Of a DNA stretch of 64,000 nucleotides, positions 16,086 through 64,000 are shown piece after piece. The stretch's first letter is position 1, and every line of letters begins with the position of its first letter. Below the pieces are notes generated by a model. It was given only the letters and a program-made list of their open reading frames with translations, searched no databases and was not told the DNA's origin. The DNA comes from Comamonas odontotermitis (GTDB lineage Bacteria; Pseudomonadota; Gammaproteobacteria; Burkholderiales; Burkholderiaceae_C), in assembly GCF_020080045.1 (NCBI RefSeq), contig NZ_CP083451.1, positions 1,612,001 through 1,676,000 on the forward strand. The letters are read 5' to 3'. Both the position numbers and the translations under genes were made by a program.

Positions 16086-17834
16086 ATGACTGTTTCCTTC
16101 GCTGCCCTGTCCCCTGCGCATGCTTCGCCGCCGCCCGCGCCTACGCGCTACTGGCCGGGGCGCGTGCCCACGCGGCTGACGGTGCCGCAGACTTCGGTAT
16201 GGGACAACCTGGCGGTCAACGCGCGGCGCTACCCCGATCATGCGGCCCTGGTGTTCTTCGAGCAGGTCATTACCTACCGGCAGATGGAGCAGATCACCGA
16301 GCGGCTGGCGGCGCACCTGCATACACAGGGCGTGCAGCGGGGCGACCGCGTGATCCTGCTGATGCAGAACTGCCCGCAACTGGTGCTGGCGCACTATGCC
16401 ATTCTGCGTGCCAATGCGGTGGTGGTGCCCGTCAACCCCATGAACACGGCCGATGAGCTGGCGCACTACATCACCGATGCGGATGCGCGTGTGGCCATCA
16501 CCACCACCGATCTGGCTGGCGCACTGGCACAGGCCAATCACCAAGTAAGCCAGATGCCCGGCGCGGAGCCGCTGCGCCACCTGCTCATCACCCGCTTTGC
16601 GGATGCCATGCCGCCCCAGGTGCAGCAGCAGGCCGATTTTCCGCAGGCCTGGGCGGCCTGGCTGCTGGGCGAGCATGCATTGCCGGATGCCAGCTTGCTG
16701 CCCGGAGCCTCGGTGGCATCGTGGCAGCAGGCGCTGCAGTGCACCAATGCCCCGCCGCTCCTCAGCGTGGGCGCCGCCGACATGGCGATCCTGCCCTATA
16801 CCAGCGGCACCACGGGCAAGCCCAAGGGGTGCATCCATGCGCACAGCCACATCCAGCACGCGGTGCAGGCGGGCCTGCTGTGGGGACGCCAAAGCACTGA
16901 AAGCGTCAATCTGGTGGTGGCGCCCATGTTCCACATCACCGGCATGGTCTCGATCATGCATGTGCTGATTGGCGCGGGGGCAACCCTGGTCATCATGCCG
17001 CGCTGGGACCGCAATCTGGCGGCGTGCCTGATGCTGCGCTGGCGTGTGACGCACTGGGCCAATATTCCGACCATGGTGGTGGATCTGCTGGCCAGCCCCC
17101 AGTTGGCGCAGGTGGATATGCGCAGCCTTGTCTACATCGGCGGCGGAGGCGCTGCCATGCCGCAGCCCGTGGCCCAGCGCATCAAGGATCTGTGGGGGCT
17201 CGATTACATCGAAGGCTATGGCATGACCGAGACCTGCGGAGCCTCGCACGCCAATCCATATGAGCATCCCAAGCAGCAATGCCTGGGTGTGCCGCACATC
17301 GGCATGCAGTCCAAGGTGATCGACCCTGACAGCCTGCAGGAGCTGCCCCCCGGCGAGGTGGGCGAGATTGTGGTGCGTGGCCCGCAGGTGCTGCAAGGCT
17401 ACTGGAAGCAGCCCGGCGCGACGGAGACCAGCTTTGTGCAGGTGGGCGGTGAGCGCTTTTTTCGCACCGGAGACCTGGGGTACCGCGATGAGGACGGCTA
17501 CTTCTTCCTGACCGACCGCTTGAAGCGCATGATCAACGCCAGCGGCTATAAGGTATGGCCTGCCGAGGTGGAGAGCCTGATGTACCGCCACCCCGCCATT
17601 CTGGAGGCCTGTGTGATCTCTGCCAGAGACCCCTACCGGGGCGAGACGGTGAAGGCCGTGGTGGTGCTGCGCCCTTCTCACCAGGGGCAGGTGAGCGAGC
17701 AGGACATCATCGCCTGGTGCCACGAGCATATGGCGGTGTACAAGGCGCCGCGCATCGTGCAACTGGTTGATCACCTGCCCAAGAGTGGCAGCGGCAAGGT
17801 GATGTGGCGTTTGCTGCAGGAAAAGGAGCTATAG
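16086..17834 (+). CDS. AMP-forming acyl-CoA synthetase (long-chain fatty acid-CoA ligase type)
   Basis: A 582-residue adenylate-forming enzyme that activates a carboxylic acid with ATP and transfers it to CoA. Motifs include the P-loop 'YTSGTTGKPKG', 'GYGMTETCG', the hinge 'RTGDLGYRDEDGYFFLTDR' and the C-terminal catalytic lysine in 'PKSGSGKVMW'. The start at ATG 16086 fits the family. An extra 40-50 residues between about 150 and 205 are low in conservation. The acid cannot be predicted safely; medium/long-chain or aromatic acids are likely. No pathway partners are adjacent. Confidence 0.9.
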   Translation: MTVSFAALSPAHASPPPAPTRYWPGRVPTRLTVPQTSVWDNLAVNARRYPDHAALVFFEQVITYRQMEQITERLAAHLHTQGVQRGDRVILLMQNCPQLVLAHYAILRANAVVVPVNPMNTADELAHYITDADARVAITTTDLAGALAQANHQVSQMPGAEPLRHLLITRFADAMPPQVQQQADFPQAWAAWLLGEHALPDASLLPGASVASWQQALQCTNAPPLLSVGAADMAILPYTSGTTGKPKGCIHAHSHIQHAVQAGLLWGRQSTESVNLVVAPMFHITGMVSIMHVLIGAGATLVIMPRWDRNLAACLMLRWRVTHWANIPTMVVDLLASPQLAQVDMRSLVYIGGGGAAMPQPVAQRIKDLWGLDYIEGYGMTETCGASHANPYEHPKQQCLGVPHIGMQSKVIDPDSLQELPPGEVGEIVVRGPQVLQGYWKQPGATETSFVQVGGERFFRTGDLGYRDEDGYFFLTDRLKRMINASGYKVWPAEVESLMYRHPAILEACVISARDPYRGETVKAVVVLRPSHQGQVSEQDIIAWCHEHMAVYKAPRIVQLVDHLPKSGSGKVMWRLLQEKEL

Positions 17835-17887
17835 GTGTAGGCAGGGCGCGCGCTCGCACCTGTTTTTGCCTGGGAGGTATTGCGGGC

Positions 17888-18250: not shown

Positions 18251-20302
<2,052 letters not shown>

Positions 20303-20626: not shown

Positions 20627-21499
20627 ATGACAGCGACAACATCGCAAAACCGGGTTCCGCAAGGCAACACCGGGGACGACACTGCGCAGCCGCGCGGCCA
20701 CTGGAAGATCGACGACATTCCCTATCACCGCATAGACCGCGCCGCCATCGAAGGCGACGAGGATCTGTTCTATCTGCTGATGAGTGCCTCATTCGTGGAG
20801 ACGGGCTCGGACACCTATGCCGCCAACCTGGGTGAGCACTACGCACAGTATCCGCAGATCAGCGACTGGCTGGTGCAGGAGTGGGAGCATGAAGAGCTGC
20901 AGCATGGCGCATCGCTGCGCCGCTATGTGGAAACCGTGTGGCCCGGCTTTCCGTGGCAGCAGGCCTACGACAGCTTTTTTGCCGAGTATTCGCAGTTGTG
21001 CACCGTGGAGGAGCTGTTCAGCGACCGGCGGCTGGAGATGGTGGCGCGCTGCGTGGTGGAAACGGGTACCACGGCCTACTACCATACCCTGCGCGAGCTC
21101 AGCCACGAGCCGGTGCTGACGCAACTGCTGGGCCACATCCGCAACGACGAGGTGGGGCATTTCAAGCACTTTCTGGCGTATTTCAAGACCTTGCAGAAGG
21201 AAGCGCCGATTGGCCGCACGCGCATTGCGGGGGCCCTGTACAGCCGCTTGAAGGAATTGCGCGAGAGTGACTCGGATGTGGCGCTGCGCCATGTGTTTGC
21301 GCACAAGGGGTCGCTTTTCTGCACGCCGGAACGCAAGTTCGAGGACGTGGCCCAGCGCATCTACCACCTGGTGAGCACCGGCCTGCCAGCCGACATGGCG
21401 GTACGCATGCTGCTCAAGCCCCTGCTGCTGCCCCCCAGGCTGGAAGGCTATCTGCACGGACCCATCAGCAAGCTGGCCTGCAAGGTGATGGCGTACTAG
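20627..21499 (+). CDS. Ferritin-like diiron-domain protein
   Basis: A 290-residue protein with all six residues of a carboxylate-bridged diiron site in the classic order: Glu58 ('SFVETG'), Glu90-x-x-His93 ('EELQH'), Glu145 ('CVVETGTTAYY') and Glu175-x-x-His178 ('DEVGH'). The spacing suits the ferritin-like oxidase/desaturase group rather than iron-storage ferritin. The enzyme could oxidise or desaturate a small substrate; no family function is established to my knowledge. An AAGGA ribosome site and a hairpin precede the ATG at 20627. The neighbours (yheS, prmB) give no functional hint. Confidence 0.85.
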   Translation: MTATTSQNRVPQGNTGDDTAQPRGHWKIDDIPYHRIDRAAIEGDEDLFYLLMSASFVETGSDTYAANLGEHYAQYPQISDWLVQEWEHEELQHGASLRRYVETVWPGFPWQQAYDSFFAEYSQLCTVEELFSDRRLEMVARCVVETGTTAYYHTLRELSHEPVLTQLLGHIRNDEVGHFKHFLAYFKTLQKEAPIGRTRIAGALYSRLKELRESDSDVALRHVFAHKGSLFCTPERKFEDVAQRIYHLVSTGLPADMAVRMLLKPLLLPPRLEGYLHGPISKLACKVMAY

Positions 21500-21539: not shown

Positions 21540-21596
21540 AAAAAGGACCGCTGGCGCTTGGTGGGTAAGCGCCATTAGCTATTTAATATATAGCAA
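21540..21596 (-). terminator. 57-bp element, copy A; terminator-like for prmB
   Basis: One of five full copies of a gap-free 57-bp motif: an A-run, a stem around GGCGCTT/AAGCGCC, then GCTAT...ATAGCAA at the far end. Read on the minus strand it is a GC stem followed by a T-run, placed 18 bp after the prmB stop. Other copies are at 38327, 48303, 56080 and 59085, with a cut copy at 63987. Confidence 0.75.
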
Positions 21597-27383: not shown

Positions 27384-28172
27384 CTAGTTCGGGCTGCCGC
27401 GCTGTTGTCTGGCCTTGGCCAGAATGGCGGCAATCATCGCCTTTTTGTCGGAAGGTGCAGCCGGCGTTGCTGGTGTTGTGTCGCCATTCGTAACCTTGCT
27501 CGGCATAGGGGTTGGAGCGGATGGGCTGCCTGCCGCACGGATGTTGTTCAAGGCTGCGGACGGACTGCTGACGGCCAAGCGGTCTTCGTCTCCAGCAGGT
27601 GTGGCTTGAAGGCCTTTTGCGGGTTTGCGCATGCCGGATGTGCGTCGATTACTATGTTTTTGATAGCGATTGCGTGCTTGTTCAGCCTGTTCCCGACTCC
27701 ATGCCTCCCAGCCGGTGGCCTCTCCGCTGGCATTGTCCAGTTCGATGCAGTCCACCGGGCACACGGGCAGGCACAACTCGCAGCCCGTACAGGCCTCGGC
27801 AATGATGGTGTGCATGCGCTTGTTGGCACCCAGAATGGCATCCGTGGGGCAGACCTTGATGCAGAGGGTGCAGCCGATGCACCAGTTTTCATCGATGCGC
27901 GCGAGCACGCGTGGAGCTTCTACGCCATGGTCCGGATTCAATGGCAGCGTGGCGCGGCCTGTGATGGCCGCCAGGCGCGCAATGCCTTCCTCGCCGCCGG
28001 GAGGGCATTGGTTGATGGCCGCTGCGCCCGTGGCCACGGCTTCGGCGTAACCTCGGCAGTCAGGGTAGCCGCAGCGCGTGCACTGGGTCTGAGGCAGGGC
28101 CTCATCAATGGCATCAATGAAAACAGCCAGCGCTGAGGCTGGCTGCTGGTCGGAGGGAAGGGGATGGGTCAC
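27384..28172 (-). CDS. rnfB: RnfB-type iron-sulfur protein (stand-alone)
   Basis: A 262-residue protein with an N-terminal Fes-type cluster motif '[10 protein letters not shown]...CPPGG' and two 4Fe-4S ferredoxin motifs '[12 protein letters not shown]' and '[12 protein letters not shown]', the RnfB domain order. No other rnf genes are present. Stand-alone RnfB proteins are common in Burkholderiales, presumably as electron carriers. I choose the GTG at 28172 because it overlaps the phaZ stop as GTGA and gives the familiar N-terminus '(M)THPLPSD'. The C-terminal 90 residues are a low-complexity Ala/Pro/Ser tail; part of it ('[18 protein letters not shown]') is encoded by sequence resembling the 57-bp element. 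Confidence 0.88.
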
Positions 28173-31873: not shown

Positions 31874-32113
31874 TCAGCCAAAATTAGATAGCGCAAATGT
31901 ATCTGACTTGGCGGGTCTGTAGCGTCATCCAAAACAGACGTTTGGCGCGGCAGACCCCTGGCCGGACGATATGGGCCGAAAGTGGCACAATAGCCCCCGT
32001 TCGGCCCTTCCCAGCCACAGTCGCATCCGCCAACCGGTTCAGCCGTGTCGCGGAAGGTTGTTTATATGCACCAGCTAATGCTTTCCAGAGGAAAGCGGAG
32101 GTCAGCGGAGAAA

Positions 32114-34993
<2,880 letters not shown>

Positions 34994-36825: not shown

Positions 36826-38253
36826 ATGAGCAAGCAATTTGATGTCGTCGTGATCGGCGGCGGCCCCGGTGGCTATGTGGCCGCCATCCGTGCAGCGCAA
36901 CTGGGCATGGCCGTGGCCTGTATCGACGAGTGGAAGAACGCCGCTGGCGGCCCCGCTCTGGGCGGCACCTGCACCAACGTAGGCTGCATTCCATCGAAGG
37001 CGCTGCTGCAGTCGTCCGAATATTTCGAGCACGCCACGCACAGCTTTGCCGACCACGGCATCTCCACCGGCAAGGTGGCCATGGACGTGGCCAAAATGAT
37101 CGCCCGCAAGGACGGCGTCGTGAAGCAGAACAACGACGGTATCCAGTACCTGTTCAAGAAGAACAAGGTCACCTTCTTCCATGGCCGCGGCTCCTTTGTG
37201 AAGGCGGTCGATGGTGGCTACGAAATCAAGGTGGCTGGCAAGGAAGAAGAATCCATCACCGGCAAGCAGATCATTGTTGCCACAGGCTCCAACGCCCGCG
37301 CGCTGCCTGGCGTGCCTTTTGATGAAGACAAGATCCTGTCGAACGATGGCGCGCTGCGCCTGGGCGCTACGCCCAAGAAGCTGGGCCTGATCGGCGCTGG
37401 CGTGATCGGCCTGGAAATGGGCTCGGTCTGGCGCCGTCTGGGCACCGAAGTGACGGTGCTCGAAGGCATGGACAAGTTCCTGCCCACCGTGGACGAGCAA
37501 ATCGCCAAGGAAGCAAAGAAGGCTTTCGACAAGCAGGGCCTCAAGATCGAGCTGGGCGTGAAGGTTGGCGAGATCAAGACCGACAAGAAGGGCGTGAACA
37601 TCAGCTACACCAACGCCAAGGGCGAAGCCCAGCAGCTGGAAGTGGACAAGCTGATCGTGTCGATCGGCCGCGTGGCCAACACCATTGGCCTCAACCCCGA
37701 AGCCGTGGGCCTCAAGCTCGACGAGCGAGGTGCGATTGTGGTCGATGACGACTGCAAGACCAACCTGCCAGGCGTGTGGGCGGTGGGCGATGTGGTGCGC
37801 GGCCCGATGCTGGCGCACAAGGCCGAAGAAGAGGGCGTTGCCGTGGCCGAGCGTATCGCTGGCCAGCACGGCCATGTGAACTTTGCTACGCTGCCTTCGG
37901 TGATCTACACCAGCCCTGAAGTGGCTTGGGTGGGCCGCACCGAGCAGCAGCTCAAGGCCGACGGCGTGGCATACAAGGCAGGCACCTTCCCGTTCCTGGC
38001 CAATGGCCGCGCCCGCGCTCTGGGCGACACGACCGGCATGGTCAAGTTCCTGGCCGATGCCACAACCGACGAAATCCTGGGCGTGCATATGGTAGGCCCG
38101 ATGGTGTCGGAGCTGATCTCCGAAGCTGTGGTGGCGATGGAGTTCAAGGCATCGAGCGAAGATATCGCTCGTATCTGCCACGCCCACCCATCGCTGTCGG
38201 AATCGACCAAGGAAGCGGCTCTGGCTGTGGACAAGCGCACCTTGAACTTCTGA
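36826..38253 (+). CDS. lpdA: Dihydrolipoyl dehydrogenase (E3)
   Basis: A 475-residue FAD enzyme that reoxidises dihydrolipoamide of the 2-oxoglutarate (and perhaps pyruvate) dehydrogenase complex. The FAD-binding 'GGGPGGYVAAIRAAQLG', redox disulfide 'GGTCTNVGCIPSKALL', NAD-binding 'LIGAGVIGLEMGSVWRRLG' and C-terminal catalytic 'HAHPSLSE' are intact. A 2-bp gap separates it from the preceding lipoprotein gene. Length is normal. Confidence 0.97.
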   Translation: MSKQFDVVVIGGGPGGYVAAIRAAQLGMAVACIDEWKNAAGGPALGGTCTNVGCIPSKALLQSSEYFEHATHSFADHGISTGKVAMDVAKMIARKDGVVKQNNDGIQYLFKKNKVTFFHGRGSFVKAVDGGYEIKVAGKEEESITGKQIIVATGSNARALPGVPFDEDKILSNDGALRLGATPKKLGLIGAGVIGLEMGSVWRRLGTEVTVLEGMDKFLPTVDEQIAKEAKKAFDKQGLKIELGVKVGEIKTDKKGVNISYTNAKGEAQQLEVDKLIVSIGRVANTIGLNPEAVGLKLDERGAIVVDDDCKTNLPGVWAVGDVVRGPMLAHKAEEEGVAVAERIAGQHGHVNFATLPSVIYTSPEVAWVGRTEQQLKADGVAYKAGTFPFLANGRARALGDTTGMVKFLADATTDEILGVHMVGPMVSELISEAVVAMEFKASSEDIARICHAHPSLSESTKEAALAVDKRTLNF

Positions 38254-38326: not shown

Positions 38327-38383
38327 AAAAATAGCCTCTACCGCTTGCTCAATGCGCGGTAGGGGCTATGTAATTTATAGCAA
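38327..38383 (-). repeat. 57-bp element, copy B (between lpdA and zapE, reversed orientation)
   Basis: The copy has the A-run at its left end, the stem CTACCGC/GCGGTAG and the GCTAT...ATAGCAA end. Both flanking genes read rightward, so the T-run lies on the strand opposite to lpdA. It therefore cannot be a simple terminator of lpdA, unlike the other full copies. It fills much of the 147-bp gap before zapE. Confidence 0.75.
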
Positions 38384-38400
38384 TAGAGACTGAGACATCT

Positions 38401-39504
38401 ATGGGCACCGCGGTAAGAGATGCATACGAGGCCGAGATTGCGGCCAAAGGTTTTCACAGCGATCCGGCGCAGCTGCGCGCGGTCGATGCCTTGCAGCGCT
38501 GTGCCGATGAATGGGAACAGTACAAAAGCAAGCGCTCCAACGCACTCAAGAAGCTGATCAACCACCCCGATATTCCCAAGGGCGTCTACATGTATGGCGG
38601 TGTGGGCCGGGGCAAGAGCTTTCTGATGGATTGCTTCTTCAACGCTGTGCCCATCCGGCGCAAGGTGCGGCTGCACTTTCATGAGTTCATGCGCGAAGTG
38701 CAGCGCGAGCTCACCCTGCTCAAAGGTACGCAGGATCCGCTGGATGTTCTGGGCGCGCAGATTGCCAAGAAGTACAAGCTGATTTGTTTTGACGAGTTTC
38801 ACGTGGCGGACATCACCGATGCGATGATCCTCTACCGCCTGCTGCTGGCGCTGTTCGACAATGGCGTGGGCTTTGTCACCACCTCCAACTTCAAACCTGA
38901 CGATCTGTACCCCGATGGGCTGCACCGCGACCGCATCCTGCCCGCAATTGAACTGCTCAATGCGCGCATGGAAATCGTCAATGTGGACAACGGCACCGAC
39001 TACCGCCGCCGTACTCTGGAGAAGGTCACCCTCTACCACTGCCCATTGGGCCCGGAGGCAGACCAGGCCATGCAGGAGGCCTTCAACCAGCTGGCCGAAG
39101 TGCCGGACGAGAAGCCTGTGTTCAAGATCGAATCCCGCGAGCTGCGCCCGCTCCGCCGTGCCGGGGGGGTGATCTGGTTCGATTTTCATGAGCTGTGCGT
39201 GAACCCGCGCTCGCAAAACGACTATCTGGAGCTGGCAAGCCAGTTCCACACGGTTTTGCTGTCCAATGTGCCCTATATGCCAGTCAACATGGCTTCGCCT
39301 GCGCGGCGCTTTACCTGGCTGGTGGATGTGCTGTATGACCGCCGCGTCAAGCTCATCCTGTCGGCTGCGGTGCCGCCCGAACAGTTGTATACCGAAGGGC
39401 CGCTGGTGCATGAGTTTCCGCGCACGGTCTCGCGCCTCAATGAAATGCAGTCGCAGGAGTACCTGTCGCTGGAGCGGCGCGTGGTGGACACGGCCCTGAC
39501 CTGA
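38401..39504 (+). CDS. zapE: Cell division protein ZapE (AFG1-like ATPase)
   Basis: A 367-residue AFG1-family P-loop ATPase. Walker A 'GGVGRGKSFLMD' (about 62-73), Walker B 'LICFDEFHVADI' and the downstream 'VTTSNFKPDDLYPDGLHRD' are diagnostic. ZapE associates with the Z ring and is needed for division under stress in Escherichia coli. Placement after the suc/lpd genes is shared with other Burkholderiales to my recollection. The gene ends 11 bp before the next one, so they may be co-transcribed. Confidence 0.95.
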   Translation: MGTAVRDAYEAEIAAKGFHSDPAQLRAVDALQRCADEWEQYKSKRSNALKKLINHPDIPKGVYMYGGVGRGKSFLMDCFFNAVPIRRKVRLHFHEFMREVQRELTLLKGTQDPLDVLGAQIAKKYKLICFDEFHVADITDAMILYRLLLALFDNGVGFVTTSNFKPDDLYPDGLHRDRILPAIELLNARMEIVNVDNGTDYRRRTLEKVTLYHCPLGPEADQAMQEAFNQLAEVPDEKPVFKIESRELRPLRRAGGVIWFDFHELCVNPRSQNDYLELASQFHTVLLSNVPYMPVNMASPARRFTWLVDVLYDRRVKLILSAAVPPEQLYTEGPLVHEFPRTVSRLNEMQSQEYLSLERRVVDTALT

Positions 39505-47308: not shown

Positions 47309-47546
47309 ACACAGCCTGCTGCTGAACATGGCGGCCATCGTTGAAGCTCCAAATCATGGAGGAAGGCCTTTGTAACAGGCGCTAACAGCTGCTGAAAAGT
47401 GAGTGATTTGCTTGATTACACTAGCGACGTCTGAAAGCCGAGCTATGTACGATCGACTATCGGCCCGCGCTGACAAAACCGGTGCTGTGCCTGCGCTAGC
47501 CTGTGCATCACCGGAATACACCACACATTTCAAGAGAGGAGAGTCC

Positions 47547-48254
47547 ATGATTCATCAACGCATTCTGGCGGGCCTTGCCCTGGCCCTGCTGACGCTGGCG
47601 CCCGCAGCACAAGCACAATACGGCCGCAATGACGAGGTGACCTGCGAAAGCCAGGACGGCCGCACGCGGGAGTGCCGCACGCCATTCCGCAATCCGGTGG
47701 TGAGCGAGACCATTTCGAGCGCGCCTTGCATCGAAGGACGTACCTGGGGCAATGCAGGCGGGGGCAGGATCTGGGTGACCGATGGCTGCCGCGCACGCTT
47801 TGTTGACGGGCGCGGCGGCTGGCAGCCTCAGCCGCCCATGGGGGGCCAGGGAACGGTGCGATGCGAAAGCCAGGACGGCCGCACGCGTGAATGCGCGGTG
47901 CCCCGTGGCGCGCGCATGGAAATTGCCCGCCAGCTGTCAGACACGCGCTGCGTCGAGGGTCGCAATTGGGGCGTGCGCGGTGGCAGCCTGTGGGTGACGG
48001 ATGGCTGTCGAGCGGAATTCGTCGTGGCTGGCGGCTATGGACAGGGCGGCGGCTACGGCTCTGGCCGCGATATCACCTGTGAAAGCAATGATCGCCGCGA
48101 CAACAGCTGTAGCTGGAATGCCCGCTGGGGCCGCCCGCAGCTGCTGGAGCAGCTCTCTGACGATTCTTGCCGCGAAGGCTATACCTGGGGCTACGACAGC
48201 CGTGCCGGCCGTATCTGGGTGACGCGCGGCTGTCGGGGGCGCTTCGGCAGTTGA
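47547..48254 (+). CDS. Secreted DUF3011 protein with three repeats
   Basis: A 235-residue exported protein with a signal peptide cleaved after 'AQA' near residue 24. Three DUF3011 repeats follow (about 28-90, 98-162, 170-235). Each opens with a C-E-S motif and a second Cys ('TCESQDGRTRECR', 'RCESQDGRTRECA', 'TCESNDRRDNSCS') and ends with 'WVT(D/R)GCRA'. Four cysteines per repeat suggest disulfides. The spacer between repeats two and three is Gly-rich. Function unknown. GAGAGGAG gives the ribosome site for the ATG at 47547. The 238-bp gap upstream shows no other structure. Confidence 0.85.
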   Translation: MIHQRILAGLALALLTLAPAAQAQYGRNDEVTCESQDGRTRECRTPFRNPVVSETISSAPCIEGRTWGNAGGGRIWVTDGCRARFVDGRGGWQPQPPMGGQGTVRCESQDGRTRECAVPRGARMEIARQLSDTRCVEGRNWGVRGGSLWVTDGCRAEFVVAGGYGQGGGYGSGRDITCESNDRRDNSCSWNARWGRPQLLEQLSDDSCREGYTWGYDSRAGRIWVTRGCRGRFGS

Positions 48255-48269
48255 GCGCGACAACATGAA

Positions 48270-48294
48270 GGGCGGCTTTCGGGCCGCCTTTTTT
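48270..48294 (+). terminator. Rho-independent terminator of the DUF3011 gene
   Basis: A stem GGCGGC/GCCGCC with loop TTTCGG and a run of six T residues, 17 bp after the stop. Confidence 0.85.
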
Positions 48295-48302
48295 GTGGCC
48301 AT

Positions 48303-48359
48303 TTGCTACAAAATAAGGAGTTGTTGCGCATATTGGGAGCGCGCTACTGGCTGATTTTT
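48303..48359 (+). repeat. 57-bp element, copy D
   Basis: The same 57-bp plan as copies A, B, C and E in the opposite orientation: it begins TTGCTAC, has a GCGC-centred imperfect stem and ends GATTTTT. It sits just after the DUF3011 terminator and could act as a second one. Confidence 0.65.
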
Positions 48360-56079: not shown

Positions 56080-56136
56080 GAAAACCGGTCGCCAGCGCAC
56101 AGCTGGTGCGCGCTATCAATCCTTTTTTGATAGCAA
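56080..56136 (-). terminator. 57-bp element, copy E; convergent terminator
   Basis: This copy fills the whole gap between the sirtuin stop and the aldo/keto reductase stop. The A-run is on the left, the stem is GCCAGC/GCTGGT-based, and the right part is GCTATCAA...TTGATAGC with a six-T loop. It fits as a terminator for the minus-strand reductase gene and perhaps both genes. Confidence 0.7.
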
Positions 56137-59084: not shown

Positions 59085-59141
59085 AAAAAAGACTGCCCGC
59101 GCTTGTGTACCAAGCGCGGGCAGCTATCTATTGGGAAGCAA
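59085..59141 (-). terminator. 57-bp element, copy C; terminator of the Bug gene
   Basis: The strongest copy: a perfect 13-bp stem CTGCCCGCGCTTG / CAAGCGCGGGCAG with a 5-nt loop. On the minus strand the stem is followed by TCTTTTTT. It lies 6 bp beyond the stop of the binding-protein gene and also closes the convergent dioxygenase gene. Confidence 0.85.
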
Positions 59142-63986: not shown

Positions 63987-64000
63987 TTGCTATTAAATAT
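63987..64000 (+). repeat. 57-bp element, copy F, cut by the window end
   Basis: TTGCTATTAAATAT at the window end matches the start of the element in the same orientation as copy D. It lies 37 bp after the MerR stop, where a terminator would be expected. Only 14 of 57 bp are visible. Confidence 0.45.

Follow-up and report, generated by a model that had tools for sequence, protein, structure and literature searches.

We suggest that a 57-bp sequence dispersed in the genome of Comamonas odontotermitis (hereafter the host) may be a high-copy, REP-like intergenic repeat of one GTDB family which would act chiefly as a 3'-terminal hairpin of transcripts from either strand, and we give this reading a probability of about 0.5. 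The copy number, the anatomy, the placement and the stem compensation at one orthologous site are direct observations. The action as RNA is the conditional part of the reading: the hairpin would act at the 3' ends of transcripts from both strands, the element would be an intrinsic terminator where one of its flanks happens to be a T-tract, and elsewhere it may cap the RNA and protect its end. REP elements are known to protect RNA ends.

The window, by which we mean the whole analysed stretch of 64,000 nucleotides, contains five 57-bp stretches (copies A to E) and a cut copy at its right edge, all at the positions where an earlier note had placed them, together with further matches to a weight matrix built from the five copies. 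These features are as follows.

21540..21596, minus strand (strand of the T-run): copy A, a full element between two plus-strand genes; the stop of the gene at 20627-21499 lies 40 nt before
38327..38383, minus strand: copy B, a full element between lpd (36826-38253, plus) and zapE (38401-39504, plus)
48303..48359, plus strand: copy C, degenerate: ATAGC is replaced by AGGAG and the fold is not stable (z 0.94 and -0.23)
56080..56136, minus strand: copy D, aberrant, forming two hairpins and with ATAGC displaced; it lies between a Sir2 gene and a convergent aldo/keto reductase gene
59085..59141, minus strand: copy E, with a long stem, between convergent 2OG-Fe dioxygenase and TctC genes; terminator-like on both strands
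63987..64000, plus strand: left end of a further copy, which continues past the window (L047 from position 188) as TTGCTAT..ATAGC and has no T-run
47350..47406, minus strand: weak extra match, matrix score 22.6, intergenic
17811..17867, plus strand: weak extra match, matrix score 24.3 (14.4 in the Comamonas genome G354), intergenic by the gene caller
18580..18636, plus strand: element-like match, score 39.3, inside an ABC-F-like ATPase coding sequence, before the C-terminal domain
27613..27669, minus strand: element-like match, score 29.9 (35.1 in the G354 counterpart), overlapping a called gene

The consensus consists of TTGCTAT-W7-ATAGC, a 16-bp stem centred on GCGC/GCGC, a T-tract or T-rich end and a trailing AAAA, all at fixed spacing. 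In the alignment of the host matrix matches, the 16 pairs join positions 15-30 with 38-53, and the conserved stretch runs from about position 0 to 66 (TTGCTAT, A/T tract, ATAGC, GCGC, GCGC, TTTT and trailing AAAA). The description of the copies as gap-free holds for A, B and E, but not for C, which has no ATAGC, or for D, in which ATAGC is displaced and two hairpins are formed. Copy C alone has its T-run on the same strand as the upstream gene, so that the orientation for termination claimed earlier for A, C, D and E could not be upheld; the T-run of A and B is opposite to both flanking genes, and that of D and E, which lie between convergent genes, fits the neighbour on the minus strand. A simple terminator scan recognized copy E on both strands and copy D weakly on the minus strand, and A, B and C were absent from its output. 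Directly before copy C, and downstream of a gene ending at 48254, there is an ordinary hairpin followed by six T (48271-48294), which the scan reported on the minus strand only. When the window was compared with G354, the site of copy A was present there too, though the flanks align poorly, copy C scored 14.1, copy D was degenerate (-0.4), and the orthologue of 18580-18636 had the same length with little resemblance (score 15.9). The sole Rfam match of the window is the SucA RNA motif (RF01070) at 32021-32107, ahead of sucA.

Within the window, GCTAT-N4..9-ATAGCAA occurred twice compared with 0 in 100 shuffles, and with up to 3 mismatches it gave 30 matches against 24.5 by chance, which is no excess. 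On the genome scale, a consensus-like pattern with up to 3 mismatches had 151 matches in the host and 1 in the reversed control. The iterated gap-free weight matrix, seeded from the five copies, gave 165 matches above the best Markov decoy score in 864 kb of host DNA (the window and two blocks totalling 800 kb), and nhmmer, run for four rounds, returned 135 to 151 matches with E<=0.1 and none in reversed DNA. By extrapolation from the matrix density, the host genome has roughly 900 copies. The shorter pattern ATAGC-N5-GCGC occurred 58 times in 121 kb of intergenic DNA (reversed control 0) and 18 times in 743 kb of coding DNA (control 7). Throughout, pattern counts partly include one site on both strands, and genes are those of a simple in-house caller. 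By strand, block A had 39/21 copies, block B 36/32 and the window 3/5. The copies have diverged from each other, with a mean identity of 0.44 and a maximum of 0.74 among 136 host copies. G249, a genome of another genus in the same GTDB family, contained 107 copies in 400 kb with the same, cleaner anatomy; these are on average 53% alike, and one pair exceeds 0.9. The idea of a family that is dispersed and keeps its spacing and its ends is supported, and the copies in the window are a small part of it.

The copies are mostly intergenic, lie at gene 3' ends and are depleted between divergent genes. In the host, 128 matrix matches were intergenic and 36 overlapped called genes. For host copies scoring >22, the convergent/tandem/divergent placement was 27/70/9, compared with 18.2/65.1/22.7 expected from the intergenic gaps that measure 57 bp or more (p 0.0016), and in G249 it was 23/45/7 compared with 14.6/44.8/15.6 (p 0.0085). 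There, 75 copies were intergenic and 32 of the 107 overlapped called genes, which counts against a hairpin of gene ends. In the tandem gaps of the host, the T-run was co-directional with the genes in 33 cases and opposite in 37, showing no orientation bias. The same comparison in G249 gave 14 and 31 (p 0.016), and this bias counts against the main reading, since a strand-blind hairpin would not predict it.

The stem is selected by compensatory change at the one orthologous site that was compared in depth, namely the gap between lpd and zapE. Copy B and 52 orthologues align there over 62 columns with no gap, and 85.0% of the cells are paired. We counted 100 double-changed cells, compared with 26.0 +- 4.5 in shuffles (0 of 500 reached this value) and with at most 41 in slid controls, and 12 of the 17 pairs had changed on both sides (7 of 500 shuffles reached 12). 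The mean core energy of the 53 sequences was -25.4 kcal/mol, and at least six of the nine bases after the stem were T in 31 of them. All 62 candidates were picked by eye, and the 53 sequences are those that remain after removal of nine (L054, L066, L067, L138-L142 and L255) that scored no more than 12 with the matrix. Several of the dropped loci keep a hairpin of other length or without boxes, and since low-scoring candidates were dropped by a gap-free matrix, the absence of gaps is partly a product of selection. A set of 27 sequences, consisting of the host and 26 of 80 named zapE loci chosen by eye, gave 84.7% pairing in the 17-pair stem and 60 double-changed cells against 14.9 in shuffles; 29 of the 80 named loci have an lpd-zapE gap under 36 bp and thus no room for the element. 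The outer GCTAT/ATAGC boxes are also 83.4% paired, but they show no covariation (0.168 against 0.180), so a competing outer stem was rejected and the boxes are kept as sequence.

Among paralogues, covariation is weak or absent, G249 included, and this counts against the main reading: the mean z of 164 host paralogues was 0.37, and 48 host paralogues had 47 double-changed cells against 28.7. The 48 copies are the top scores of 163, with L024:811-881, although in range, not included. The compensating substitutions described earlier could not be demonstrated from five copies and are weak among paralogues, but they are strong at lpd-zapE, and it is at this one tested site that selection on the hairpin is supported.

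An element-like hairpin precedes zapE in 22 of the 30 element-rich genomes in which this site was searched, and is lacking in the other 8. In some element-rich genomes of other genera (L250, L251, L253 and L256), other repeat-like text (for example ACGCAGAGGACGCAGAG and GCGTCTTTTGCGT) lies ahead of zapE. The lpd-zapE gap of L048-L050 and G357 carries an insertion of about 22-25 bp in the loop between GCTAT and ATAGC with AACAGGTTCTTA-like text, which also occurs in the short spacer of G357 at the place of copy A and may represent a further small repeat in the koreensis group. The element-poor Paracidovorax citrulli (L054) and Acidovorax Root219 (L067) keep the hairpin at lpd-zapE while the boxes are gone or eroded; that of Paracidovorax citrulli has a TTGTTTTT tail and no boxes.

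We then consider termination. Among gene ends with room for the element, 98 of 499 in the host and 72 of 262 in the G249 sample carry it. Ordinary terminators, defined by an in-house criterion as a hairpin and T-tail outside the element, were rarer at host ends with the element (19 of 98) than at those without (145 of 401; Fisher p 0.0017; shuffled baseline 17 of 401), and the element therefore seems able to replace a terminator. In G249 there was little difference (10 of 72 and 35 of 190; baseline 7 of 190), which counts against the main reading. Only 16 of 98 host and 18 of 72 G249 elements contain a hairpin followed by a canonical T-tail on the strand of the gene, which is not the picture of intrinsic terminators, and in the pooled set the T content of the two tails was independent of gene direction (p 0.67 both ways). 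The minimum free energy was -10 or lower in 62% of the 136 host and 90% of the 107 G249 copies, but the fold z was below -2 in 31% and 38%, respectively, so that many folds are only moderate, which also weighs against the main reading. Since canonical gene-strand tails are few and the tails are blind to gene direction, termination is likely to occur at some sites and not to be the general signature of the element. The terminator role proposed earlier thus fits some sites, such as copy E on both strands and lpd-zapE in many genera, but is not supported as a general rule, with no upstream-facing excess of T. In Rfam 15, no family exceeded its gathering score for the element, the window giving sucA only, and E-value searches with a 20-kb G249 stretch and copy B returned only HTT-AS1_3 and TUC338, far below the gathering score.

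The distribution among relatives was measured with GCTAT-N7-ATAGC-N5-GCGC at up to 2 mismatches, with counts given per strand. The host had 268/252 matches against 29/23 in the control. Many of 299 genomes of the host's GTDB family were rich (up to 532/473) and many were at control level. A draw of 250 genomes from the order contained 8 of the host family and 242 others, and of the latter no genome exceeded 56 matches per strand and, leaving small counts aside, none stood clearly above its control. Within the order, the excess is thus seen only in the host's GTDB family, and it is patchy even inside genera. The 53 genomes of the host genus ranged from control level up to 268/252, with 181/200 in G354. 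In a set of 40 named genomes, Acidovorax radicis had 324/308 (control 19/23) compared with 39/42 (14/15) in Acidovorax Root219, Polaromonas AET17H-212 had 296/323 (11/11) compared with 43/36 (22/27) in strain JS666, and the Comamonas koreensis group had 35-53 per strand (controls 17-34). Several hundred or more gene-end elements per genome are present in many Comamonas relatives. The excess falls with the GC content of the zapE locus (Spearman -0.57, 39 loci), so that losses may reflect drift in base composition. We also observed an exact match to the strict form of the element in 28 viral contigs (L288-L315), which may be phage or flanking host DNA.

The family reads as an old one, with sites turning over between genera and quiet now. 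Each of the 6 Comamonas genomes searched at thiC carries the element downstream of this gene, with scores from 29 to 54, while outside Comamonas a match within 230 nt was found in 4 of 21, and 3 of 30 genomes gave no thiC. The host and G354 are 87-94% identical by segment over about 100 kb; of 33 host matches in a 184-kb stretch, counting those that are weak or coding, 18 could be placed in G354 and 14 of these score >15.6 there. In this small sample, no clean empty site was found among the 18. In the two element-poor, koreensis-like genomes G377 and G357, copy A is missing (19-38 bp spacer), the hairpin of copy B is kept and an ordinary hairpin occupies the place of copy E, which speaks for the main reading. 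A 400-kb stretch of G377 was not syntenic with the samples analysed. Between the host and G249, 8 alignments of shared sites represent 6 distinct gene pairs, one of which has the element on the same 3' side.

We also saw a longer version of the element (the long form, about 105-108 bp), in which two halves are inverted at an offset of 50-51 around an inner palindrome (TATTGGGTTT..AAACCCAATA in several host copies). Of 16 close pairs of matches in the host, 14 are such inverted halves, and the long form lies in C1 of the host near 33566, 57675, 93269, 237078, 1251952, 1321579 and at other places. By our reading, it replaces the short form at zapE of the Comamonas loci L143 and L148 (about 105 bp) and at thiC of L268 and L269. 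The Y1 transposase (Y1_Tnp, PF01797) was sought in 54 chosen genomes, the host among them; 51 have it, whether rich or poor in the element, and the rich G273 lacks it. The host has one Y1 gene, near which the best element score is 11.3, and 4 of 12 further Y1 loci (about 3.3 kb) had a match >30, about the number expected from copy density. Since Y1 occurs in rich and poor genomes alike, a RAYT origin as the sole driver was rejected. The element-rich G052 (genus g14) has twenty PF01797 matches, several of them identical and several split in two, as in an expanded IS200-like element.

Here, we need to weigh other explanations of the same observations. One of them is that the copies are functionless relics of a non-autonomous mobile element, a MITE or REP family spread by some transposase. 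The palindromic long form, with its inverted ends and its exchange with the short form at orthologous sites, and the difference in sites between genera (17 of 21 non-Comamonas genomes without a match after thiC) are in agreement with it. On the contrary, no clean empty site was seen among the 18 mapped matches, no host pair exceeds 74% identity, Y1 presence does not follow the element and the stem is kept by compensatory change. We regard relics as improbable, and present-day mobility of the family, called mobile-like earlier, was not seen, with no empty site among the 18 mapped matches and with host copies so diverged. It is also conceivable, although we consider it unlikely, that the copies are lineage-specific bidirectional intrinsic terminators, whose hairpin with a T-tract on each strand would end transcription both ways. 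Copy E is terminator-like on both strands, the coding-strand tail is T-rich in 31 of the 53 lpd-zapE sequences, ordinary terminators are rarer where the host element is present, and the element-poor Paracidovorax citrulli keeps its lpd-zapE hairpin with the TTGTTTTT tail and without the boxes. The scarcity of canonical gene-strand tails and their lack of tuning to gene direction do not fit such terminators; in addition, copy C comes after an ordinary hairpin with a T-run, and the coding-strand tail after thiC is A-rich in 5 of 7 Comamonas sequences, host included.

A hairpin does not account for the conserved outer boxes, which suggest a further sequence-specific factor. In the strongest form of this idea, GCTAT-W7-ATAGC-N5-GCGC would be the site of a DNA- or RNA-binding factor, such as a nucleoid protein or an uptake receptor as for Neisseria DUS, and the hairpin would be secondary, which we think has only a small chance of being correct. 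In the 107 G249 copies, A17, G18 and C19 of ATAGC are conserved at 1.00, 0.99 and 1.00 and GCGC at 0.91-0.99, although matrix matches are good at conserved positions by construction. The boxes are conserved without covariation, the consensus differs between the host and G249, which has its own loop consensus, single species of rich genera have a low density, and the hairpin is kept while the boxes decay at lpd-zapE of L054 and L067. The most over-represented 8-mer of the host sample, TAGCTGCC, belongs to the element (47 against 23.0 expected), but exact-word over-representation is modest (z at most 5.0). Moreover, we found no candidate protein, and the fall of the excess with GC content means that drift may explain the losses. 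What speaks most for a factor is that ATAGC and GCGC hardly vary in otherwise diverged copies, that G249 has a distinct consensus and that poor species occur in rich genera.

Returning to the REP-like repeat, we compared it with known systems. PMC5217627 (2017) reports two potential novel motifs, GCTTAT(N)5AAGCG and ATAGCT(N)22CAAAAG. The former has 114 copies in Acidovorax ebreus, 94% of them intergenic, and the intergenic ones comprise 44 convergent, 4 divergent and 59 co-oriented cases; the latter has 125 copies in Polaromonas naphthalenivorans (81% intergenic, 34 convergent). In our reading, the former fits the loop and inner stem of the element (positions about 28-43) and the latter its left box and right stem (15-48), whereas the consulted part of that paper lists them as separate motifs and not as one family, hairpin or fixed-length element. 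We found no paper describing the element as a family in a literature search that covered mostly open papers.

REP/BIME sequences with RAYT transposases comprise >100 extragenic palindromes per genome with complementary mutations and inverted composites (PMC2817692). As far as the consulted part of that description goes, the element is similar in having >100 extragenic palindromic copies, complementary mutations in the palindrome (as seen at lpd-zapE) and inverted composites, but it has ATAGC and no GT(A/G)G head, is about twice as long, and is neither near the single Y1 gene of the host nor co-distributed with Y1. As regards MITEs, inverted ends are seen in the long form, and no insertion polymorphism or empty site was found among the 18 mapped matches. 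The element resembles intrinsic (Rho-independent) terminators in its GC-rich hairpin, which is clearly stable only in part of the copies, its location at gene 3' ends and the T-tract of some copies, and differs from them in about 66 bp of conserved primary sequence and in the lack of a canonical gene-strand T-tail in most copies.

For DUS, dialects between relatives reportedly exist. DUS/USS form inverted-pair terminators of a 10-12-base word (PMC2397512, PMC5217627). To the extent that these sources cover the point, the element is like DUS in its many, mostly intergenic copies, its hairpins at gene ends and its consensus dialects between relatives, but it is a gapped architecture of about 50-66 bp whose exact words are only modestly over-represented; an uptake word was rejected, as there was no strongly over-represented exact word in the host sample. 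The Beta-proteobacterial repeat element (BRE) of Comamonadaceae and Bordetella is dispersed and mobile-like, 75-91 bp long, 69% GC and often tandem, with most copies (29) in Polaromonas JS666 (PMC3110155). Compared by this partial description only, identity with BRE was rejected by length, GC and distribution, the element being scarce in JS666.

If the main reading is right, a large share of the roomy gene 3' ends (98/499 in the host and 72/262 in G249) carries one structured element without an Rfam match, which would matter for RNA stability and for the ends of transcripts in many genomes of Acidovorax, Comamonas, Rhodoferax and their relatives. More speculatively, and we hold this to be rather unlikely, hundreds of gene-end sites per genome may be held alike by a trans-acting factor, of the nucleoid, of RNA 3' ends or of DNA uptake, that reads GCTAT-W7-ATAGC-N5-GCGC; where the factor is lost, the boxes would decay and the hairpins would survive as plain terminators. 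If this is true, the factor system would have been lost repeatedly within genera. The contrast of rich and poor genomes inside genera offers a natural comparison for finding the reader of the conserved boxes.
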